Origin: a virus
IMG/VR virus record: IMGVR_UViG_3300008110_000847
Coordinates: 1 to 30,052 of that record
Reading direction: 5' to 3' (one strand)
DNA: 30,052 bases
Shown here: piece after piece, positions 3,933 to 29,850 of the stretch
Layout: each line of letters opens with the position of its first letter
Numbering within the stretch: position 1 is the stretch's first letter
Position numbers and translations under genes: made by a program
The notes under the pieces: model-generated
Database searches by the model: none
Seen by the model: only the letters and a program-made list of their open reading frames with translations
What the model was told of the DNA's origin: nothing

Positions 3933-5525
3933 ATGGAAAAAGATAATCTAACACAAAAGCATAATAGTGACTGGGCACTGTTCTTACCCGCGCTCAGTAC
4001 ATTTTATATTACTGGGTTGGGCAAACAGCGTAAAGGTGAAAGTTATTTTCCATCTGAACGAATACCACAAGGTATTTCTGATCTTGAATCATTAAATTTT
4101 CTCAACAGTCAACAAGCACTGTTCCCATATAAGTGGGCATTATATAGTGCAGGTCATGCTGAACTTGATCCTAGTAAGCAAGGCAATAGTGAAAGTATTG
4201 TGCATGAACGTGAAAGTGGTACTTTCTTGTTGGGCGATAGTGGTGGATTTCAAATTCTAAAAGGTCAATGGCCTGCTGACTGGAAAGATCCTAATTGTCC
4301 ACGTGCTAAAAAGAAACGTGAACAAGTACTAAAGTGGATGGATACATACATGGACTATGGTATGGTTCTTGATATTCCATCACAGTCACTAACGACTTAC
4401 CATTTGAAAGATAAGAATGGTAATAGTGTACATGGTATCAAAACTATTGAAGATGCTATTACTGCTACCCATATCAATAACAAATATTTTATTGAAAATC
4501 GTAGTGGCAAATGCAAATTCTTAAATGTATTACAAGGTCGCAGTCATCAACAAAGCGATGATTGGTATCAGGAGATGAAGGATTATTGTGATCCTAAAAA
4601 ATATCCTGATAATCATTTTAATGGTTGGGCATTCGGAGGTCAGACAAAAATTGATATCAGTCTTTTTCTTAAGCGTTTGGTACATATTATCCATGATGAT
4701 TTACTCCAGCCTGGAGTTCACGATTGGATTCATTGCCTTGGCACATCTATACTAGAATGGTCATTAGTGTTTAGTGATACACAACGGGCACTTAGAAAAT
4801 ATGTAAATCCAAATGTTACAATTAGTTTTGACTGTGCTAGTCCATTCTTTAGTGCAGCAAAAGGTTTGGCATACTTCAATAATACATTTGAGCATAATAG
4901 CAAGTGGTCATATCAAATGGAAAAAACTGCGGAAGCCAAAAAATACGCAAAAGATACTAGACCATTTAAGGATGCCGTGCTAGCTGACGGTATCCATAAA
5001 GTATTTACTGACAGTCCGATAACTGCTAGAATGACAATTAATGATTTGTGTTACAGAGGCGTAGGATTTATTGGGCAGCACAACAAAGAAACAAAAACTA
5101 GTTGGGACACATTAAGTTACACACTAATACAAGGTCACAACGTATATCAACATATGGTAGCAGTACAAGAAGCTAACAGAAAATATGACAATAGTATCAT
5201 GCCTAGTATGTTAATACATGAACAGTTTGATAAGGTCTTATTCAAAGATGTAGTTGATGAAATTATTTCTCAACCTACAAGAGAAAGTGCATTGAATAAG
5301 ATTGAAGAATATAATTGGTTTTGGAATCAATTTAAAAGCGGTAGTCAAGGTTTTAGTGGTAAGAAAACTACTAACTCAATGACAAATTTTGATAAATTTT
5401 TTGATATGGCAGTGTTTACTAATTCTCAAGAGGAAGAATCTGTTGAAGATATCATTGATGATATTGAGATACTAGAAGGTGAAGAGATGTGGGCTAGCCG
5501 TGTTATTGATGAAAACAAGGAGTAA
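3933..5525 (+). CDS. dpdA: DpdA-like DNA guanine transglycosylase (TGT family)
   Basis: 530-aa member of the tRNA-guanine transglycosylase superfamily. Phage DpdA proteins exchange guanine in DNA for a 7-deazaguanine base. TGT-like landmarks are GDSGGFQ (101-107), LNVLQGR (197-203, like the VVQGG strand), GWAFGG (231-236) and SFDCASP (298-304), where D300 is the best candidate nucleophile. The CxCxxC zinc cluster of bacterial TGT is not visible. Near the C-terminus, NFDKFFDM (485-492) resembles the polymerase tail TTFDDFFSIG, followed by an acidic tail. It lies 4 bases after the clamp stop, in the same cluster as FolE, QueD and QueE, so DNA rather than tRNA is the likely substrate. The next gene's SD (AAGGAG) is embedded in its last codons. 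The exact DpdA subfamily and inserted base cannot be told from sequence. Confidence 0.87.
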   Translation: MEKDNLTQKHNSDWALFLPALSTFYITGLGKQRKGESYFPSERIPQGISDLESLNFLNSQQALFPYKWALYSAGHAELDPSKQGNSESIVHERESGTFLLGDSGGFQILKGQWPADWKDPNCPRAKKKREQVLKWMDTYMDYGMVLDIPSQSLTTYHLKDKNGNSVHGIKTIEDAITATHINNKYFIENRSGKCKFLNVLQGRSHQQSDDWYQEMKDYCDPKKYPDNHFNGWAFGGQTKIDISLFLKRLVHIIHDDLLQPGVHDWIHCLGTSILEWSLVFSDTQRALRKYVNPNVTISFDCASPFFSAAKGLAYFNNTFEHNSKWSYQMEKTAEAKKYAKDTRPFKDAVLADGIHKVFTDSPITARMTINDLCYRGVGFIGQHNKETKTSWDTLSYTLIQGHNVYQHMVAVQEANRKYDNSIMPSMLIHEQFDKVLFKDVVDEIISQPTRESALNKIEEYNWFWNQFKSGSQGFSGKKTTNSMTNFDKFFDMAVFTNSQEEESVEDIIDDIEILEGEEMWASRVIDENKE

Positions 5526-8885: not shown

Positions 8886-9566
8886 ATGAGTTATAACAAA
8901 ACTAAAACCGATCCAGAACTGGGTCAAAAAGTTCATGAATATCTAGTAAAAATGGGAGTTGAAACTCCTATGAAACCTAATAATTGGGAACGCAAACAAA
9001 AAATTGAAGCTATTGAGGGTTACTTTCATCAGATCATGAAAACCTTAGGGTTAGATATGAGTGATGATAGTTTAATTGAAACGCCTACTAGGGTAGCCCG
9101 GATGTATGTCAACGAAATCTTTTGGGGCTTAGATTACGAGGCATTCCCTAAATGTACAACAGTTGACAACAAAATGAAGTACAATGAAATGGTAGTTGAG
9201 CGTAATGTCAACGTACAAAGTAATTGTGAACATCACTTTGTAGTTATTGACGGGCTTGCTACAGTAGCATATGTACCTAAACAAAAAGTATTAGGCCTAA
9301 GTAAAATCAATCGCATTGTAGAATATTTTAGTAAACGACCACAAATACAAGAACGGTTGACTGAACAAATTTTCCATGCACTTTGTTTCATACTTGAAAC
9401 AGAGGATGTTGCTGTTATGATTGACGCACAACATTACTGTGTGCGTTCAAGAGGTGTTGAGGATACAGGTAGTTCTACTGTTACAGTTCGCTTAGGTGGT
9501 GGATTTAAATCTGATCCAGCAGCGAGAAATGAATTCTTAAGCATTGCTAGAATGGGTAAATCATGA
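8886..9566 (+). CDS. folE: GTP cyclohydrolase I (FolE)
   Basis: Converts GTP to 7,8-dihydroneopterin triphosphate, the first step of both folate and 7-deazaguanine synthesis. The protein has 226 aa. Conserved features are ETPTRVARMY (65-74), the zinc motif CEHH (C114, H117), GLSKINRIVEYFSKRPQIQERLT (137-159), and HYCVRSRG (H183, C185 third zinc ligand, R188), followed by GSSTVTVRLGGGF. All expected catalytic residues are present, so it should be active. With QueD and QueE nearby, the product is best explained as feeding 7-deazaguanine synthesis for DNA. The N-terminal 35 residues are an extension typical of this enzyme. A 4-base overlap (ATGA) leads to the next ORF. Confidence 0.95.
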   Translation: MSYNKTKTDPELGQKVHEYLVKMGVETPMKPNNWERKQKIEAIEGYFHQIMKTLGLDMSDDSLIETPTRVARMYVNEIFWGLDYEAFPKCTTVDNKMKYNEMVVERNVNVQSNCEHHFVVIDGLATVAYVPKQKVLGLSKINRIVEYFSKRPQIQERLTEQIFHALCFILETEDVAVMIDAQHYCVRSRGVEDTGSSTVTVRLGGGFKSDPAARNEFLSIARMGKS

Positions 9567-9727
9567 TCATTGCAATTACTATATTAACCTTTCTAGTTTT
9601 TTGTGGTTTTATAGTATTGTTTATGAACTTACCAGGTTGCACTGGTAGCTGCCTACAAGGCAGATACAAATGTGATTGTCCTTTAAGGAAAGATAAAGAT
9701 GATATTCGACAAGATAAAAGACCTTAA
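9563..9727 (+). CDS. small membrane protein with Cys cluster, 54 aa
   Basis: Begins at ATGA overlapping the folE stop. Residues 1-23 form one hydrophobic helix (IIAITILTFLVFCGFIVLF). A cysteine-rich segment PGCTGSCLQGRYKCDCP follows, with four Cys spaced C-x3-C-x6-C-x-C, and the tail is charged. It may be a membrane anchor with a metal- or disulfide-bound head. The 3' end overlaps the next gene by 29 bases, which is unusual here and lowers confidence. No family recognised. Confidence 0.5.
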   Translation: MIIAITILTFLVFCGFIVLFMNLPGCTGSCLQGRYKCDCPLRKDKDDIRQDKRP

Positions 9728-10169
9728 ATCTAAAGGCGTAAAAATAGGTATTACATTTAGTACATTTGATTTACTACATGCAGGACATATTGCTATGCTT
9801 GCAGAAGCAAAAAATCATTGTGATTATTTGATTGCAGGATTGCAAACTGATCCTACTATAGATAGACCAGAAACAAAAAATAAACCAGTTCAAAGTATCG
9901 TTGAAAGACAAATACAATTATCAGCATGTAGATTCGTTGATGAGGTAGTTGTGTATCAAACTGAACAGGATTTGATAGATATATTGTTGACATTACCCAT
10001 TGATGTGCGTATACTAGGTGTTGAATACAAAGGTAAAGAATTTACTGGTGATGCAGCATGTCAAATAAAAGGTATAGAAATAATTTATAATGGTCGTGAC
10101 CATAGTTTTAGTTCCAGTAATTTACGCAAACGTGTTGCAGAAGCACAAGAACAAAAACAAAAATGGTAA
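9699..10169 (+). CDS. cytidylyltransferase-like nucleotidyltransferase
   Basis: 156-aa member of the HxGH nucleotidyltransferase superfamily (TagD / RfaE C-domain / glycerol-3-phosphate cytidylyltransferase type). STFDLLHAGH (21-30) contains the H27-x-G-H30 motif, followed by the LIAGLQTD strand. R-Q-I-Q-L-S-A lies mid-protein, and SSSNLRKR near the C-terminus takes the place of the second nucleotide-binding motif. Such enzymes join a phosphorylated alcohol or sugar to CMP or AMP. I infer a CDP- or ADP-activated intermediate, perhaps a donor for one of the neighbouring glycosyltransferases. Substrate is undetermined. SD AAGGAAAGA lies before the ATG. Confidence 0.8.
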   Translation: MIFDKIKDLKSKGVKIGITFSTFDLLHAGHIAMLAEAKNHCDYLIAGLQTDPTIDRPETKNKPVQSIVERQIQLSACRFVDEVVVYQTEQDLIDILLTLPIDVRILGVEYKGKEFTGDAACQIKGIEIIYNGRDHSFSSSNLRKRVAEAQEQKQKW

Positions 10170-10172
10170 ATA

Positions 10173-10373
10173 ATGAAGTTAAAGCCTTGCCCCTTCTGTG
10201 GTAATGACTTAAATCAACAAGATTTTTGGCATGAAACAGTTTACCCATACAATAGACAAAAAACTATTTGGTCAGTAAACTGTGCTGAAGAAGTGGGAGG
10301 GTGTTCTGCACAGATGTTCGCTGATAGTGTAGAAGAAGTAGTAGAAAAATGGAACAAAAGACAGCGGTCTTAG
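10173..10373 (+). CDS. Lar-like zinc-finger protein, 66 aa
   Basis: Starts KLKPCPFCGN (3-11), the signature opening of the Lar restriction-alleviation family (LKPCPFCG). Further Cys residues lie in VNCAEEVGGCSAQ, and the C-terminus EEVVEKWNKR matches the conserved A-x-x-x-W-N-x-R ending. Four Cys would bind one zinc. The Rac prophage Lar protein lessens host restriction by stimulating modification; many phage relatives have only the zinc module, so the activity is inferred from family. No strong SD is visible, and the start follows the preceding stop by 3 bases (TAAATAATG). Confidence 0.75.
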   Translation: MKLKPCPFCGNDLNQQDFWHETVYPYNRQKTIWSVNCAEEVGGCSAQMFADSVEEVVEKWNKRQRS

Positions 10374-10430
10374 ACATTCATCCCGCTATATTAAATTCTG
10401 CATGTCTTGCTAATAGAGGAGACATAAACA

Positions 10431-11021
10431 ATGGCAAATCAAACAATACATTACATAGATGTAGCAAACATGAGCCCAGAAGAAGCGTCAATTCATCTGG
10501 AAAGTATTAGACAAAAATATGCTAATAAATTCAGAAGTTACAAATATACTAGCACTAAAGAATATCACGATAGTTTTCCATGCGCATATCGTCAATGGCG
10601 TGCGGATAGCCATTGCAATCTAATTCATGGTTATAGTTTTAGTATGAAGTTTTATTTTGGTACAGATCAACTAGATGTTCGTAATTGGGCAGCAGACTAC
10701 GGTGGTCTAAAAGAATTAAAAAAGATATTAGAAGATCAGTTTGACCATACATTACTTGTAGCACAAGATGACCCAGAACTGGAAACATTTAAACTACTAC
10801 AAGAAAAGAAAATGGCTAAATTGACCATATTACCACGTTTAGGGTGTGAAGGTTTAGCCGATATGCTTTACAAGTATGTCAATGGCGTGTATATTCCTGA
10901 TATGTGGGGAGAAGGGGAAGCAAATAGACTTTGGTGTTATCGTGTAGAAGTGCGTGAGACACAAAGTAATATGGCTTTTAGAGAAGGACACCGTGAATGG
11001 AATGAGGATTTATTTTCATGA
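10431..11021 (+). CDS. queD: 6-carboxytetrahydropterin synthase-like (QueD)
   Basis: 196-aa PTPS/QueD family enzyme, expected to turn dihydroneopterin triphosphate into 6-carboxy-5,6,7,8-tetrahydropterin, the second step to 7-deazaguanine. Recognisable parts are FPCAYRQW (49-56), HCNLIHGYSF (61-70) with catalytic-type C62, FDHTLLV (104-110, the D-H pair), CEGLADML (139-146, Glu helix) and RVEVRETQSN (171-180). Canonical QueD binds zinc through A-A-H and H-G-H; here the positions read Y53, H66 and Y68, so two of three His are replaced by Tyr. Either metal binding is altered or other His supply ligands. SD AGGAG (10417-10421) precedes the ATG by 9 bases. It overlaps the phosphoribosyltransferase by 4 bases. 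Confidence 0.87.
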   Translation: MANQTIHYIDVANMSPEEASIHLESIRQKYANKFRSYKYTSTKEYHDSFPCAYRQWRADSHCNLIHGYSFSMKFYFGTDQLDVRNWAADYGGLKELKKILEDQFDHTLLVAQDDPELETFKLLQEKKMAKLTILPRLGCEGLADMLYKYVNGVYIPDMWGEGEANRLWCYRVEVRETQSNMAFREGHREWNEDLFS

Positions 11022-11566
11022 AAACTTCAGTTAGTTATGAAGAAATTGAATCACATTGCTTAGCCATAGCAAAACAAATGAGCAAAGACAAATGGGTACC
11101 TGATTACATTGTAGGTATCACCCGTGGTGGATTATTACCTGCCGTTTTATTAAGCAATTGGTTTGAGTGTAAAATGCATACATTAGCAGTTAGTTTGCGT
11201 GACAATTCTGATACTGAAAGTAATTGCTGGATGGCTGAAGATGCAATTGGTTATGTACCATTTGAAGAACGAGGTGTCTTTGGAGCAGAAATTGATCCTT
11301 CTTACCGTAAAAACATACTAATCGTTGATGATATCAATGATACTGGTGCAACATTAAATTGGATTAAGATGGATTGGCAACAGAATTGTTTACCTAGTCA
11401 TAGTGCATGGGATAGTGTGTGGAATAACAATGTAAGAGTAGCGACATTATATAATCGTTGGTCAAGTAAGAGTGAACTGCCAGTTGACTATACAGGTGTG
11501 TTTGTTCATTTGGATAATGATCCTGGTTGGATAGTGTTTCCTTGGGAAAAATGGGCTAGTGAATAA
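11018..11566 (+). CDS. phosphoribosyltransferase (PRTase type I)
   Basis: 182-aa type I phosphoribosyltransferase. Diagnostic are GITRGGLLPAVLLS (33-46, the PPi loop region) and the PRPP-binding motif ILIVDDINDTGATL (100-113) with D104/D105. The fold suits purine salvage enzymes such as xanthine-guanine PRTase, and FVHLDNDPGWIVFPWE near the C-terminus resembles the W-I-x-F-P-W-E ending of that group. It is translationally coupled to queD (ATGA). In this setting it could salvage guanine released by the DpdA exchange, or act on a deazapurine base; that link is inference. Confidence 0.85.
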   Translation: MKTSVSYEEIESHCLAIAKQMSKDKWVPDYIVGITRGGLLPAVLLSNWFECKMHTLAVSLRDNSDTESNCWMAEDAIGYVPFEERGVFGAEIDPSYRKNILIVDDINDTGATLNWIKMDWQQNCLPSHSAWDSVWNNNVRVATLYNRWSSKSELPVDYTGVFVHLDNDPGWIVFPWEKWASE

Positions 11567-11578
11567 TAAGGATTTTAT

Positions 11579-11803
11579 ATGAACGAAAACTTTGAAAAAG
11601 TATTAAAAGAATCTACTTATGATATATTAGGTGTGCCACAAGTAGATCAAAAGAAATTTACTAAGTTAATTATTGAAGAATGCATTAAATTAATGCATGA
11701 GCAAGAAAGAATTCCAGAAGGATTTTTTTATGCTAAAAATGCAAATATACATGAACTTGTTATTAAACAACATTTCGGAGTTGAAGATGAACGAGCGAGT
11801 TAA
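11579..11803 (+). CDS. small helical protein, paralog 1 of 3
   Basis: 74 aa, all-helical by appearance. KLIIEECIKLMHEQE followed by ELVIKQHFGVEDE is the same pattern seen in the genes at 11787 and 12821 (L-I-[IV]-x-E-C-[IM] then I-x-x-x-F-G). SD AAGGATTTTAT precedes the ATG. It overlaps the next paralog by 17 bases. Members of this type are frequent in T4-like marine phages with no known role. Confidence 0.7.
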   Translation: MNENFEKVLKESTYDILGVPQVDQKKFTKLIIEECIKLMHEQERIPEGFFYAKNANIHELVIKQHFGVEDERAS

Positions 11804-12014
11804 AGAACTAATGGTTAACCATGGTCTTCACAAGTATATAACTGAAGATTGTCAACACAGAATGGAACTTCTTGCTGAGTTGATTGTTAGAGAATGTATG
11901 CGTATGTGCGAGGTTACGGAGATGAGTTTTGTGACTCATGATTGTGATGTTGAGGCATCGGGTGCAATTACTGTTAAACAATTTATTGCTGAACATTTTG
12001 GAGTTGAAGAATGA
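11787..12014 (+). CDS. small helical protein, paralog 2 of 3
   Basis: 75 aa. I use ATG 11787, preceded by CGGAG and aligned with the starts of its paralogs; an earlier in-frame ATG at 11697 would overlap the previous gene by over 100 bases. It contains LLAELIVRECMRMCE and ends VKQFIAEHFGVEE, matching paralogs at 11579 and 12821. The Cys residues are spaced like a possible metal or disulfide pair but are not strictly shared. It overlaps the lipoprotein gene by 4 bases (ATGA). Function unknown. Confidence 0.7.
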   Translation: MNERVKELMVNHGLHKYITEDCQHRMELLAELIVRECMRMCEVTEMSFVTHDCDVEASGAITVKQFIAEHFGVEE

Positions 12015-12568
12015 ATATTAAGCTAATTGTAATGACCTTTTTGCTTAGTGCTTGTTCATTGACTAGTTTTAAAGATAAGACTACTCAAAATTCACCTCCA
12101 ATTGAAAAGAGAAATAGTCACAGTAACGCAAACACCAACATCAATAATACAAATGCAATTGTAAATAAAATTGATGAACCTGTTATAGAAGTACGTAAAG
12201 AAAAAATCACTGATTCAGCCGATCCTAATAAACTATTTAAGAACTATTCAATTTATTTTGATTTAGATGAGTATACAGTAAAAGACAAATTTTTACCTAT
12301 AATTAAACAACATGCCGACTTTCTTGTTAAAAATCCTGATCATTTTGTGTTTATAGAAGGTCATACAGATGAGCGAGGTGGTGCAGAGTATAATGTGGCA
12401 TTAGGTCAAAAAAGAGCAAACGCTGTTAGAGTCCTATTGTTATTACATGGAGTGAAAGAAAATCAACTAGAAGCTTATTCATATGGATTTCTCAAACCTA
12501 AAGCATTCGGTTCTAATGAAGAAGCATGGAGTCAAAATCGCCGTGTTGACTTTTTTTACAAAAATTAA
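12011..12568 (+). CDS. Pal-like OmpA-domain lipoprotein
   Basis: 185-aa lipoprotein. Residues 1-15 (MNIKLIVMTFLLSAC) form a signal peptide with lipobox L-S-A-C, so C15 would be lipidated. A low-complexity Asn/Ser/Thr-rich linker of about 50 residues follows. The C-terminal domain is OmpA/Pal-type: SIYFDLDEYTV, then FVFIEGHTDERGGAEYNVAL, and QNRRVDFFY at the end. In Pal this domain binds diaminopimelate-containing peptidoglycan. A phage-made copy could modify the envelope of the infected cell, for example in lysis timing, superinfection exclusion or vesiculation; these are inferences. It probably derives from a Gram-negative host. It is ATGA-coupled to the upstream paralog. Confidence 0.88.
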   Translation: MNIKLIVMTFLLSACSLTSFKDKTTQNSPPIEKRNSHSNANTNINNTNAIVNKIDEPVIEVRKEKITDSADPNKLFKNYSIYFDLDEYTVKDKFLPIIKQHADFLVKNPDHFVFIEGHTDERGGAEYNVALGQKRANAVRVLLLLHGVKENQLEAYSYGFLKPKAFGSNEEAWSQNRRVDFFYKN

Positions 12569-12595
12569 AAATTACTTAACATTTTGGAGTTATAA

Positions 12596-12817
12596 ATGAA
12601 AACATTTGATACATTTGAACAAGTAGAAGGCATGAATGGTTGCATGAAAAGGCCAATAGTAGTTCATGCTACACAAATTAATGAAGAATTTAGAGTAGAC
12701 ACATTAGAAGGTAATTACAAACAAGGTAAGCCAGGTGATTATCTAATGCGCGGTATAGACGGTGAACTCTATATTTGTGACAGAGAAATTTTTGAAAAAA
12801 CTTATGATTGGGTATAA
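12596..12817 (+). CDS. conserved phage protein (PGDYLMRGIDGELY family), 73 aa
   Basis: Contains RPIVVHATQI, then FRVDTLEGNYKQGKPGDYLM, and ELYICDREIFEKTYDWV. This is the pattern of a widespread small phage family (P-x-x-V-x-A-x-Q ... G-D-[YW]-[LI]-[MI]-x-G-x-x-G-E-x-Y-x-[CI] ... I-F-x-x-T-Y). It appears in many unrelated phages and has no known biochemical function; it looks like a small beta-rich domain. SD TTGGAG lies about 7 bases before the ATG. Confidence 0.8.
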   Translation: MKTFDTFEQVEGMNGCMKRPIVVHATQINEEFRVDTLEGNYKQGKPGDYLMRGIDGELYICDREIFEKTYDWV

Positions 12818-12820
12818 CTC

Positions 12821-13096
12821 ATGAATATAAAAATTCAAGAAGTTGCTGACAAGGCAAAAGAATTAGTGCCTAAAGGTATACTTAGCGTAGAACATTGGAT
12901 AGATCAATACAATTTAATCTTTGCTGAATTAATAATTAAAGAATGCATTGAGTGTTGTGGTAGTCAAGCAGATAAACAAACCATTCGTAAAAGATTTGGT
13001 TTACCTGTAGAAAGCAATATTAAGTATCCTGGTGTTGACCCAAGTGGCAGCATAGAATCACAATACAATCGTGAATATAACATACCAAAAACATGA
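12821..13096 (+). CDS. small helical protein, paralog 3 of 3
   Basis: 91 aa. FAELIIKECIECCGSQADKQ followed by IRKRFGLPVE repeats the pattern of the genes at 11579 and 11787, with an extra C-terminal segment (YPGVDPSGSIESQYNREYN). It starts 3 bases after the preceding stop and overlaps the MazG-like gene by 4 bases. Function unknown. Confidence 0.7.
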   Translation: MNIKIQEVADKAKELVPKGILSVEHWIDQYNLIFAELIIKECIECCGSQADKQTIRKRFGLPVESNIKYPGVDPSGSIESQYNREYNIPKT

Positions 13097-13371
13097 ACAA
13101 TAAAACCGAAGAAGCATTAGGTATTCTACAAGAAGAATGTGCTGAAGTTATTGTAGAAGCCAGTAAAATTCGTCGTTTTGGATTAGAAACAGCACACTAC
13201 AAATCAGACATGAACCGCACTCACAGAGCAATGTTAGAAATGGAATTAGGTGATGTACTAGCATTAGTAGATATTCTGTTAGAACAGGGGATATTAGATC
13301 AGGATAGACTTGATCTATATAAGCAACAGAAAAAAGATAAACTTAAATTATGGTCAAAAATATATGAGTAA
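13093..13371 (+). CDS. MazG-like nucleotide pyrophosphohydrolase
   Basis: 92-aa all-alpha NTP pyrophosphatase of the MazG/phage type. The metal-binding motifs are EECAE (E14, E15, E18) and EMELGDVLALVD (E51, D54), matching the E-E-x-x-E ... E-x-x-D pattern. It may hydrolyse (d)NTPs or ppGpp-like nucleotides. In a deazaguanine cluster it could also influence the dGTP/GTP pool, which is inference. It overlaps queE by 8 bases (ATGAGTAA). Confidence 0.85.
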   Translation: MNNKTEEALGILQEECAEVIVEASKIRRFGLETAHYKSDMNRTHRAMLEMELGDVLALVDILLEQGILDQDRLDLYKQQKKDKLKLWSKIYE

Positions 13372-14212
13372 AATTAAAGTAGCAGAATTATTTTATAGTA
13401 TTCAAGGTGAGGGTAGATTTATGGGTGTGCCCTCAGTTTTTCTGCGCACATATGGTTGTAATTTTAAATGTGCTGGTTTCGGTATGCCTAAAGGTCAATG
13501 TTCATCTGAAGCAGATAATATTGCAGAACGCATCAATGAGTTTAAATTCTATCATGAATTACCATTAGTAAGCACAGGGTGCGATAGTTATGCAAGTTGG
13601 CATCCCAAATTTAAAGACCTTAGTGCAATGTATGATACAGATGTAATTGTAGAAGCAATTATTGGTTCATTACCATACAAAGAATGGCGTGATGAACATC
13701 TTGTTATTACAGGTGGTGAACCACTATTAGGATGGCAACGTAGCTACCCTGAATTACTAGAGCAGCCTAAAATGAAAAAATTAAAGGATATCACCTTTGA
13801 AACTAACGGCACACAAAAATTACAACCAGACTTTAAATTGTATTTGTATAAATGGACACACAAGAAAGGTTATCATAATTTAACTTTTAGCGTGAGTCCT
13901 AAATTAAGTGTGAGTGGAGAGAGTAGAGATGAAGCTATTCGCCCTGATATTGTTAGAGAGTACGAAGATTTAGGTCATACTTATTTAAAATTTGTTGTAG
14001 CAACAAAAGACGATGTTGATGAGGCACTAGAAGTTATTGAATTATACAAGAAAGAAGGATTCGGTGGTCATGTATACTTGATGCCCGTAGGTGGTGTTGA
14101 AAGTGTGTATACATTAAACAACAGAACTGTCGCAGAGCTTGCAATGAAACATGGTTTGCGTTATAGTGATAGATTACAAGTACCTTTATTTAAAAACGAG
14201 TGGGGAACATGA
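13364..14212 (+). CDS. queE: 7-carboxy-7-deazaguanine synthase-like radical SAM (QueE)
   Basis: 282-aa radical SAM enzyme, expected to make 7-carboxy-7-deazaguanine from carboxytetrahydropterin. QueE features: ELFYSIQGEGRFMGVPSVFL (8-27), GGEPLLGW (117-124), FETNGTQ (145-151) and SVSPKLS (176-182). The iron-sulfur motif is unusual. Canonical C-x3-C-x2-C-D-T is split: C32-x3-C36 is followed by AGFGMP and a segment of about 36 residues before GCDSYASW, where C73 would be the third ligand (C46 is an alternative). ATG 13364 lies inside the MazG-like stop region; an in-frame ATG at 13310 would overlap it by 62 bases. The next gene starts at ATGA on the queE stop. The assignment is supported by FolE and QueD nearby. 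Confidence 0.87.
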   Translation: MSKIKVAELFYSIQGEGRFMGVPSVFLRTYGCNFKCAGFGMPKGQCSSEADNIAERINEFKFYHELPLVSTGCDSYASWHPKFKDLSAMYDTDVIVEAIIGSLPYKEWRDEHLVITGGEPLLGWQRSYPELLEQPKMKKLKDITFETNGTQKLQPDFKLYLYKWTHKKGYHNLTFSVSPKLSVSGESRDEAIRPDIVREYEDLGHTYLKFVVATKDDVDEALEVIELYKKEGFGGHVYLMPVGGVESVYTLNNRTVAELAMKHGLRYSDRLQVPLFKNEWGT

Positions 14213-16263: not shown

Positions 16264-16454
16264 TGATAGTTGTTCCACCCAATAAAATAAGTGTAATACA
16301 GTATTGGTGCATTATGAATATATCACCTAGGCAGTATTATTTTCACCATGCATTCGGTGGTGATGGGTGGGAAGTAAGACGTACTAAAACAGAATGGCAA
16401 CTCAGAACTGATGACCCTAAACACGAAACTTACATTGAGTTAAAATATAAATGA
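16263..16454 (+). CDS. small protein resembling the 22030-23625 array family, 63 aa
   Basis: Starts at TAATG on the glycosyltransferase stop and ends in ATGA shared with uvdE. The layout (VIQYWCIMN..., then GGDGWEVRR, then WQLRTDDPKHETYIELKYK) has the same ending shape as the array genes further on, whose members end in strings such as MYELKYL or FFTLRWS. It is probably a distant member of that family. Function unknown. Confidence 0.65.
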   Translation: MIVVPPNKISVIQYWCIMNISPRQYYFHHAFGGDGWEVRRTKTEWQLRTDDPKHETYIELKYK

Positions 16455-17506
16455 CATTTAATCCAAAAATCAAACGTATCGGCTTTGCTTGCAAATGGGC
16501 AGAGATTAACAAGAAGGGTGAGATTGCTAGTACCGAGGGTCTTAACACTGGTGGTACTACTATGGCATGGGCTAATCGTCAAAGCCGCAGGGTAGCAGAA
16601 GAAAAAATAATTGATGTTGCTGCCCGTAACATTATGAATACTCATGCACTAATCAAAAAGGTTGCGACACTTCCTAATGAACTACGCATGTTGCGCATCA
16701 CTAGCGACATGCTAAGTTTCTACACACATGAAGATTGGCAAGGATTCTGGCAAGACACAGAAGTACAAAATAAACTAGAATATTGGTTCAGGCCACTAGG
16801 TGAGACTGCACGTGCAAATGATGTACGTATTAGTTTTCACCCTGACCAATTTGTAGTTCTTGCAAGCGACCGCGAAGAAGTAGTAAATAAATCTATAGAG
16901 GAGTTTGAATATCATGCAAGCATGGCAAGATGGATGGGCTATGGCTCTACGTTCCAGGACTGTAAAATCAATGTCCACATCAGTGGTCGTCAAGGACCCG
17001 AAGGCATTCGTAAAGCCTACGAAAGACTCAGCCCCGAGGCGAGGAATTGCATTACTATCGAAAACGAGGAGATAGTACATGGACTTGATGATTGTCTCAG
17101 TCTTAGTAATTTGCTTCCTATTGTGCTTGACATACACCATCATTGGGTACGTGAAGGGGTATACATTGATCCAGCTAGCGATAGCGTTAAGCGAGTGGTT
17201 GACAGCTGGCGTGGTGTTCGTCCTACTATGCATTATAGCGTCAGCCGTGAAGATATTCTAGTAAATCATGATCCTAATGTTTTACCTAATATGAATATAT
17301 TGCTAGAACAAGGACACAAGAAACAAAAACTACGTGCGCACAGCGACTACTATTGGAACAATGCATGTAACGAATGGGCATTGACTTTTAATGAACAGTT
17401 TGATATAATGTGCGAGAGCAAGGCTAAGAATATGGCTAGCTTTAAATTATACGAGGGAAGTAAAAATGTTAAACAAGATAAAGAACTTATTTGCGAAGAA
17501 GCCTGA
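16451..17506 (+). CDS. uvdE: UV damage endonuclease (UvdE)
   Basis: 351-aa UV-damage endonuclease, a TIM-barrel nuclease that nicks DNA 5' of cyclobutane dimers, 6-4 photoproducts and other lesions. Family motifs in order: IKRIGFACKW (7-16), LRITSDMLSFYTH (81-93), VRISFHPDQFVVLAS (125-139), CKINVHISG (171-179), ITIENEE (201-207), PIVLDIHHHWV (223-233, metal-binding His) and TMHYSVSRE. All look intact. It gives the phage light-independent repair, reasonable for a sunlit aquatic habitat. Start overlaps the preceding stop (ATGA); the end overlaps the next gene by 41 bases. Confidence 0.93.
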   Translation: MTFNPKIKRIGFACKWAEINKKGEIASTEGLNTGGTTMAWANRQSRRVAEEKIIDVAARNIMNTHALIKKVATLPNELRMLRITSDMLSFYTHEDWQGFWQDTEVQNKLEYWFRPLGETARANDVRISFHPDQFVVLASDREEVVNKSIEEFEYHASMARWMGYGSTFQDCKINVHISGRQGPEGIRKAYERLSPEARNCITIENEEIVHGLDDCLSLSNLLPIVLDIHHHWVREGVYIDPASDSVKRVVDSWRGVRPTMHYSVSREDILVNHDPNVLPNMNILLEQGHKKQKLRAHSDYYWNNACNEWALTFNEQFDIMCESKAKNMASFKLYEGSKNVKQDKELICEEA

Positions 17507-28237: not shown

Positions 28238-28864
28238 ATGAAAAAATCAAAAAAATCAAAAAAAGAAATTTCTGTACATAAGCCTAGTCAAGATTATATT
28301 GAAGCCGCACTAAAATTTTGTACTAGACAAATAGATACACTAGGGCATCCGTTGGCAGATGATGCCCTATTCACACATCTAGATGACTCAAACTCATCAT
28401 TACTACGTGAAGCGGTATTAGCGCATGTTGCCAATCTTAAGTGGTGTTCGGAAAAACACGGACCAGATGCTATGGATCCAGTTACTGGAAAAAACTATGA
28501 AATAAAACCTAAGCGCGGTGATAAATCTCCTTTTAAGGGTGGCGGAAGCTTTAGCGATCTCACCGAAAAAAGAATTGAAGCCATGAAAACTACAAACGAC
28601 GGCATGATTGTAGGATTGTTTGTGGAACGTAGACTTGTATTAGCATTAGAATTTTTACTATCTGATATTATGCCGAAATTAGAGGCAAAGGTTATCAAAG
28701 AATGTGTTGATGGTAAGAACCGTTATGCTAGAAGTAGCGGTTTTGATTACCGAGATTATAAAGATAGTAAAAATTTAAAAATCATATATATAGATGAGGA
28801 TATGATTGCAGAATACGAATGCATTCACCACGAACTATATGATTTGATTTTGAGTACTAAATGA
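28238..28864 (+). CDS. putative PD-(D/E)XK restriction-like endonuclease
   Basis: 208 aa. GPDAMDPVTGKNYEIKP (75-91) fits the catalytic core of PD-(D/E)XK nucleases: P76-D77, a turn with D80, then E88-I-K90 on the next strand. GDKSPFKGGGSFSDLT and a strand MIVGLFVERRLVLALEFLL follow, as in type II restriction enzymes. The first ten residues are a Lys-rich tail. It overlaps a DNA methyltransferase gene by 4 bases, the usual layout of a restriction-modification pair. No clear SD precedes the ATG; a TATACT box (28217-28222) suggests a short-leader transcript. Alternatives are a methyl-directed or host-DNA-degrading nuclease. Confidence 0.7.
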   Translation: MKKSKKSKKEISVHKPSQDYIEAALKFCTRQIDTLGHPLADDALFTHLDDSNSSLLREAVLAHVANLKWCSEKHGPDAMDPVTGKNYEIKPKRGDKSPFKGGGSFSDLTEKRIEAMKTTNDGMIVGLFVERRLVLALEFLLSDIMPKLEAKVIKECVDGKNRYARSSGFDYRDYKDSKNLKIIYIDEDMIAEYECIHHELYDLILSTK

Positions 28865-29850
28865 TTGAACAATATTTAAACGTAAGATATAGCACTAGAA
28901 ATCTACCTGATAGCGAGTTTGATAAACTGCTACCTACATTAGCAAAAGAACTCACGCAGGTAGATTTCCTACCTCATTACACCGAGGATAAATTGCGTAA
29001 GGATTGGAACGAGCTAAAAAAATGGTCAACTACTGAAACTTTTATTAATTCAACCAGCCGTTTAGGTATGAAATTGTGCGAACATTTCATGCCAAATTTC
29101 TATGATATTGAAGATAACCGAGGTAATAGTTTCAGAACATATTGGCAAGATAGTAAACTTTTAGAAAAGGTATTAATCGGTAATCGTAAATCACATAGCA
29201 CTCCATACCTTTCGGAACTGAAGCGAGGTATTTATTTTGCAACTGGAATGCCCAAATCAACAATGTACAGACCGCAAATGAGCAAGATGATCACAACAGG
29301 TGCAGAATATGTACTTGATCCTTGTGCTGGTTGGGGAGGTCGTATGTTGGGCACAGTAGCAAATGGGGCACATTATATTGCATTTGAGCCTAACCCAATT
29401 ACTTTTGCCAATCTAAATAGAATGATTGATTTTTTGGGTATTACAAGTAATGTAACATTGTATTGTGATGATGCACGTAATATTGATTCCTATGACATAC
29501 CAATGGTTGATGTTGTTTTGACTAGTCCACCTTACTTTGATTTAGAAATTTACTGTAAGGATAACAATCAAAGTGTCCAAAATTGTACTACCTATGAGGA
29601 TTGGGATACCAATTTTTTGACAATAATCATATCTAAGTGTATAATGTATTTAAAGGCTGATGGCAAAAGTTGCTGGAATGTAGCAAACTTCGGTAAAAAT
29701 GATATGTGGGCAAGTGTTGACAATGCACATGAAATAATGAATTTTGAACGTGCTATAATTTATGAAAATAAATCTTCAGCTAGGCCAACAATAAAATCTG
29801 ATTCAAAATCTAAAAAATCTGATATAACAGTTTCATACACACGGAGATAA
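28861..29850 (+). CDS. DNA methyltransferase with TSPPY motif
   Basis: 329-aa SAM-dependent DNA methyltransferase. Motif I is DPCAGWGG (153-160), followed by IAFEPNPITFANL (acidic residue binding SAM ribose), YCDDARNID, and motif IV TSPPY (221-225), typical of N4-cytosine or N6-adenine enzymes. SCWNVANFG follows as a later strand. About 150 residues precede motif I and may hold the target-recognition region. It is coupled (ATGA) to the putative endonuclease, so it may protect phage DNA against it. The specificity is unknown. A Lys/Ser-rich segment near the C-terminus is low complexity. Confidence 0.86.
   Translation: MIEQYLNVRYSTRNLPDSEFDKLLPTLAKELTQVDFLPHYTEDKLRKDWNELKKWSTTETFINSTSRLGMKLCEHFMPNFYDIEDNRGNSFRTYWQDSKLLEKVLIGNRKSHSTPYLSELKRGIYFATGMPKSTMYRPQMSKMITTGAEYVLDPCAGWGGRMLGTVANGAHYIAFEPNPITFANLNRMIDFLGITSNVTLYCDDARNIDSYDIPMVDVVLTSPPYFDLEIYCKDNNQSVQNCTTYEDWDTNFLTIIISKCIMYLKADGKSCWNVANFGKNDMWASVDNAHEIMNFERAIIYENKSSARPTIKSDSKSKKSDITVSYTRR

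Follow-up and report, generated by a model that had tools for sequence, protein, structure and literature searches.

TCGA is the site of the TaqI system (R.TaqI/M.TaqI) of bacteria, in which M.TaqI is an N6-adenine enzyme with an NPPY motif and with motif I placed before motif IV. We analyzed a 30,052-base virus record (IMGVR_UViG_3300008110_000847), hereafter called the window, in which a gene for a 208-aa nuclease-like protein overlaps a gene for a 329-aa methyltransferase (MTase). This pair is like the TaqI system only in its proposed TCGA site, apart from the order of motifs I and IV, which is also that of M.TaqI; the TaqI system is bacterial, and the 329-aa MTase has TSPPY where M.TaqI has NPPY. 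The chlorovirus pairs (CviJI and others) resemble the present pair in that a virus encodes adjacent nuclease and MTase genes with short sites, but they belong to algal viruses and not to phages; their type II nucleases are held responsible for the rapid breakdown of host DNA, and mutual exclusion was found not to be due to them (PMC7019647). The Mom-REase fusions of jumbo phages likewise combine phage modification with a nuclease and have been proposed to spare phage DNA while attacking host or rival DNA, but they use momylation and fused domains (PMC7824862), whereas the window has a separate SAM methyltransferase gene. Virus-encoded restriction-modification is already known; what appears to be new here is the exchange of the nuclease beside a constant MTase, together with MTase-free carriers purged of the site. 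These two features are not described for the chlorovirus pairs in the passages of PMC7019647 consulted, and we found neither them nor a description of the present pair in the open-access literature searched. We put at roughly 0.84 the probability that the gene pair is a phage-encoded type II-like restriction-modification pair directed at TCGA.

Nuclease and methyltransferase genes of the window

The adjoining nuclease and MTase genes reported in the preliminary description are confirmed, including their coordinates and their 4-base overlap, ATGA. The features of the locus are as follows.

28238..28864, plus strand: PvuII-like PD-(D/E)XK nuclease, 208 aa, PHROG 3210, family 0, a proposed TCGA-specific restriction endonuclease (ORF; AlphaFold, Foldseek and VIA; family conservation; TCGA purging in carriers without a paired MTase)
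28466..28507, plus strand: catalytic motif G-x-D77-A-x-D80 ... E88-x-K90, codons D77 to K90 (conservation; profile alignment to PvuII GNDAVD...YELK)
28861..28864, plus strand: 4-bp stop/start overlap ATGA of the nuclease and MTase genes (sequence; small overlaps or gaps recur in relatives)
28861..29850, plus strand: DNA methyltransferase, 329 aa, motif I then motif IV (TSPPY), a proposed TCGA-protecting modification enzyme (Pfam, PADLOC, AlphaFold, family alignment)
29317..29340, plus strand: SAM-binding motif I DPCAGWGG, residues 153-160 of the MTase (family alignment)
29521..29535, plus strand: catalytic motif IV TSPPY, residues 221-225 of the MTase (family alignment)

The 208-aa protein has no family match in Pfam, NCBIfam or PADLOC, and is matched by PHROG 3210, a family of unknown function (E 1e-21). 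The residues proposed earlier for its active site, D77, E88 and K90, are all present, as are D80 and E58; D77, E88, K90 and E58 are invariant across 23 aligned family-0 members, and D80 is invariant in a smaller 7-member set. Structure prediction, which had been suggested as a check on whether the protein adopts a nuclease fold, returned a restriction-endonuclease fold at high confidence (AlphaFold pLDDT 93.8, pTM 0.87). The best PDB match to this model is PvuII (Foldseek, E 7.5e-7), followed in the ranking by DpnI, Eco15I and NhoI, with Holliday-junction resolvases lower; VIA comparison of the model with PvuII gave Z 10.6 with rmsd 6.1 over 140 for 1ni0, and Z 10.4 with rmsd 2.6 over 121 for 3ksk. 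Among PDB sequences, the 7-member family-0 profile aligns GxDAxD...ExK to the PvuII GNDAVD...YELK, a match that is weak on its own (E 0.7), that disappears when the larger family-0 alignment is used, and that we accordingly count only as supporting, jointly with the fold. The window nuclease is therefore like R.PvuII in having it as best structural match with the D...ExK active site in register, and R.PvuII also works with a separate MTase, but the two share only 11-18% identity. With the PvuII fold and the catalytic residues both present, the 208-aa protein is confidently modelled as a restriction-endonuclease-fold protein with an intact active site, and it would probably act as a metal-dependent dimer. 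In the few nuclease pairs compared, dN/dS was mostly 0.03-0.37, with one value of 0.92 based on very few changes, suggesting that these pairs are mostly under purifying selection.

The downstream product, METHYLTRANSFERASE, was correctly described as a TSPPY methyltransferase. It matches the Pfam family N6_N4_Mtase (PF01555) just above the cut-off (27.8 bits vs 26.7, E 3e-6) as well as PADLOC type II MTase models (MTase_II, E 4e-10), and both DPCAGWGG and TSPPY, in this order, are conserved in 34 relatives. Its AlphaFold model (pLDDT 91.1) retrieves the Rossmann MTase superfamily in its entirety, with RNA (including tRNA) and small-molecule enzymes at the top; since these matches are generic, the fold does not decide the substrate, and the assignment to DNA comes from the sequence families and the context. 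On these grounds the 329-aa protein is a predicted N6/N4-type DNA methyltransferase, encoded by a separate gene adjoining the nuclease.

The phage had been called T4-like, which holds for replication, as the window encodes a T4-type DNA polymerase; however, the closest relatives of this polymerase are from Sinorhizobium phage Phosso, Agrobacterium phage Atu_ph07, Xanthomonas phage XaC1 and Klebsiella phage RaK2, which are jumbo phages of 350-490 kb. Elsewhere in the window, positions 8886-14212 hold genes for GTP cyclohydrolase, QueD-like, QueE-like and phosphoribosyltransferase-domain proteins, which form part of a 7-deazaguanine pathway, so that modification of the phage DNA, or of host tRNA, is possible as well. 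Further genes are a UvdE-type UV endonuclease at 16451-17506 (Pfam PF03851, E 6e-35) and a 530-aa ORF at 3933-5525 that Pfam does not recognize and that PHROG matches only marginally.

Neighbour families of the methyltransferase and exchange of the nuclease gene

Scanning of viral contigs gave 260 MTase loci, so that such pairs are not uncommon, contrary to what had been supposed for phages of this kind. The closest 80 of these, together with earlier matches, were clustered at 90% identity into 38 MTase groups. Within this closest third of the matches, a gene of ~180-220 aa lies directly adjacent to the MTase gene in 36 of the 38 groups, almost always on its upstream side, where it abuts or overlaps the MTase start (it is downstream in L006); no such small neighbour was seen in L023, whose MTase as query retrieved three loci only, or in L090. 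As the search for the pair in related phages thus found it again in many viral contigs, its occurrence is not due to chance. The possibility had been raised that homologs of the MTase occur in most phages without the nuclease. This is not the case in the close family, but does apply to distant homologues at ~30% identity in Vibrio, Staphylococcus, Mammaliicoccus and Bacteroides phages, which have no such neighbour, indicating that the pairing is characteristic of this MTase clade. A scan of bacterial genomes with the MTase returned mainly partial matches of 26-35% to larger proteins and no such pair.

The neighbour gene belongs to one of three families, designated 0, 1 and 2, without detectable mutual similarity: family 0 was compared with the other two by BLAST clustering and by hhalign, which revealed no relation of it to either, and family 1 with family 2 by BLAST only. 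Family 1 (phrog_6927) has an invariant G-x-D...ExK motif, with GHD in nearly all members, and is matched by the PADLOC type II restriction enzyme model REase_II PDLC03515 (E 1.8e-12); thus a type II restriction enzyme model recognizes a partner of the same MTase family, although that partner has no detectable relation to the window nuclease. Family 2 has no clear family match; E31, D58 and K70 are invariant in it, and it is a candidate nuclease only from its position, a weak D...K motif and the depletion of TCGA. Searches of PDB sequences with families 1 and 2 returned nothing useful. Two of the three neighbour families look like nucleases.

Phages whose MTases are 91-98% identical can differ by a clean replacement of the nuclease gene only. 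Between loci L063 and L086, DNA identity is ~98% until the nuclease start codon is reached and resumes at that level 3 bp ahead of the MTase start; between these flanks one locus has a family-2 gene and the other a family-0 gene. Similar replacements are seen at lower identity in L079/L080 (families 2/0), L083/L098 (0/1) and L055/L077 (0/2). The nuclease gene can also be hypervariable within one family, as in L012, L013, L019, L020 and L021, where MTases 92-98% identical accompany family-1 nucleases mostly 38-67% identical. If an MTase accepts three different nucleases without itself changing, a single target site common to all of them is to be expected. The best explanation, given the depletion pattern described below, is that the MTase would be the constant part of a module and the nuclease would be exchangeable among three unrelated families acting on the same site.

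TCGA content of carriers with and without the methyltransferase

The TCGA signal came out of a scan of all palindromes and was not predicted beforehand; further records then tested it. Expected 4-mer counts were derived from the genome's own tri- and dinucleotide counts (ACG-2014d). Genes of families 0 and 1 are likewise found in cyanophages and in further contigs that lack this MTase, and we call such carriers solo if no paired MTase lies in the stretch examined, many of the IMG/VR records being fragments. At one family-0 locus (L204) and two family-1 loci (L258 and L285), the nuclease gene has one and the same position, immediately downstream of a gene for a gp44-like clamp loader, with no MTase.

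TCGA is completely absent from the family-0-solo genome of ACG-2014d (0 vs 310 expected in 179 kb) and from four more family-0-solo records of 60 kb each (0/64, 0/86, 0/65 and 0/60), giving 0 vs 586 expected in 419 kb over the five records. The same is true for family-1-solo records S-SSM4, G006 and G009 (0/111, 0/82 and 0/85), or 0 of 280 expected in 180 kb over the three. TCGA ranks first in depletion among all 4-mers in both pools, whose eight records were read after zero counts had been seen in some. In seven cyanophage and jumbo-phage controls (S-PM2, Syn9, P-SSM2, Syn19, P-SSM4, S-SM1 and RaK2), nuclease-free in the sense of no match in tblastn searches, TCGA stands at 0.73-0.86 of expectation, with rank 11-29. 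Among non-redundant family-0 loci, 38 of the 42 lacking this MTase have no TCGA, compared with 3 of the 21 having it (Fisher P 3e-9, kinship ignored, although related phages are not independent), and zero TCGA is found in 12 of 19 family-1 loci without either MTase. Poor fits are the family-1-solo records G005 (3/97) and G008 (11/57), ACG-2014f (family 1, with unlinked MTases only; 115/133) and locus L204 (4/9); a single TCGA in G003 lies in locus L194, outside the 60 kb counted. In 12 large records with the nuclease but without this MTase adjacent, the MTase family is absent elsewhere too, except for one weak match, and some other DNA MTase is present in 9 of the 12. The PvuII specificity, CAGCTG, was discarded as a candidate on the indirect ground that in ACG-2014d it is not depleted (25 vs 16 expected).

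TCGA is kept by carriers that have a different MTase, of the DLPY type, immediately after the family-1 gene (P-SSM7 83/94, G007 124/130, G011 60/58). Beside the MTase family of the window, TCGA is depleted yet present, with 41/143 for family 0, 55/221 for family 1 and 5/105 for family 2. It ranks 1 to 3 of ~136 in nine of ten 40-kb samples of such phages, and 9 in the tenth, G015 (family 0 with the MTase; 26/62), which fits poorly. In the window itself, TCGA is the most depleted of the 136 4-mers, with 11 occurrences vs 47 expected, or 55 +/- 6 by shuffling, and none of them is within the two genes. As most MTase-bearing phages have TCGA in reduced numbers, modification in them may be only partial, may come late or may be a recent acquisition; the partial depletion may stem from incomplete or late methylation, or from solo nucleases in the past. 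The pattern of depletion and retention is indirectly consistent with both enzymes acting on the same short site, and the survival of sites is the only indication that the 329-aa MTase would be specific for TCGA.

Other words are missing from some of the phages sampled. S-ShM2 and S-SSM2, which belong to the same phage species (L301-L309, L377), have a divergent family-1 branch; they lack TTAA (0/586 and 0/120) and keep TCGA, which suggests that this branch has a second readable specificity, TTAA. In S-BM3 (L319-L321), whose family-1 copy is annotated as 113 aa, TTAA is at 30/189, as expected if purging relaxes after decay of the nuclease. GTAC is absent from S-SM1 (0 of 165 expected; L355, 50001-100000) and low in Syn9 (36/172) and Syn19 (79/192), possibly because of another site-purging nuclease; a Syn19 protein named R.RsaI endonuclease gave a weak fold match. 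We also noted the absence of ACGT (0/119) and AGWCT (0/38) in G005 (L334-L336), of GATC (0/120) in G017 (L365-L366) and of CGCG (0/23) in G013 (L357-L358). CCGG is nearly absent from the cyanophages sampled (L350-L355, L292-L309) with or without these nucleases, and its loss regardless of the nuclease points to another cause.

Alternative explanations and biological meaning

A restriction-modification pair directed at TCGA would work as follows. The nuclease would cut TCGA wherever it is unmodified in the DNA of the host, and in that of any rival present; the MTase of the overlapping gene, probably co-expressed, would modify TCGA (at N4-C or N6-A) in the phage's own DNA and so protect it; and phages with the nuclease but no paired MTase would be spared by having no TCGA. 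As for the benefit, degradation of host DNA seems more likely than exclusion of rivals, by analogy with the chlorovirus precedent (PMC7019647). We also consider it quite probable that nucleases of the three unrelated families are interchangeable TCGA enzymes, and that self would be told from non-self either by methylation with the shared MTase or, without a paired MTase, by eliminating every TCGA from the phage's own genome, that is, by restriction without modification.

The alternative that survives best, though we regard it as unlikely, is that the nuclease cuts TCGA but the 329-aa protein does not protect against it, being perhaps an RNA methyltransferase or else an orphan MTase that acts elsewhere, so that the phage would rely on partial loss of sites or on another modification such as 7-deazaguanine. 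The lead of RNA and small-molecule methyltransferases in the fold search, the GTP cyclohydrolase, QueD and QueE homologues in the window and the partial retention of TCGA would all fit it. It is countered by the above-cut-off N6_N4_Mtase match and the type II MTase matches, by the tight linkage of the MTase to whichever of three unrelated families fills the place of the nuclease, and by the retention of some TCGA in MTase-bearing phages, whereas solo nuclease phages have none.

We consider it very unlikely that the nuclease is a selfish, free-standing homing endonuclease that stands beside the MTase by chance and spreads by cleaving alleles that lack it. The recognition sites of homing enzymes are long and rare, and an enzyme of this kind would not purge a 4-bp word genome-wide, so the total loss of 586 and 280 expected TCGA in the solo carriers argues, if indirectly, against it. 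The top fold matches are type II restriction enzymes, and a linkage that holds with one MTase family in 36 of 38 groups cannot be called patchy; scattered insertion beside conserved genes was seen in the MTase-free contexts, not in the MTase-linked one. Families 0 and 1 without the MTase do lie beside replication genes (a helicase, or directly after the gp44-like clamp loader), and the replacement is clean at gene borders, which agrees with the siting typical of homing nucleases, common near essential genes and at exchange boundaries (PMC10448857). The idea that hosts or rival phages impose the TCGA depletion, with the nuclease and MTase having other or different specificities and the pair being a counter-defence or a decayed restriction system, is highly improbable: the loss of host restriction sites by phages is known (PMC12707154), most cyanophages here have lost CCGG with or without the nuclease and the depletion of TCGA persists in MTase-bearing phages, but TCGA loss tracks the phage's own nuclease, the seven nuclease-free controls and the carriers with an adjacent DLPY MTase keep TCGA, and a family-1 sub-branch lacks TTAA instead, with TTAA at 30/189 in S-BM3, where the copy is annotated as shorter.

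If the reading as a TCGA-directed restriction-modification pair is true, a family of hypothetical proteins common in marine and freshwater phages would be a predicted TCGA restriction enzyme, and a virus lacking a methyltransferase could make safe use of a restriction enzyme that cuts often, having purged the sites from its own DNA. Nuclease specificities would then be readable directly from the absence of words in phage genomes. The finding bears on how large lytic phages may destroy host DNA while sparing their own.
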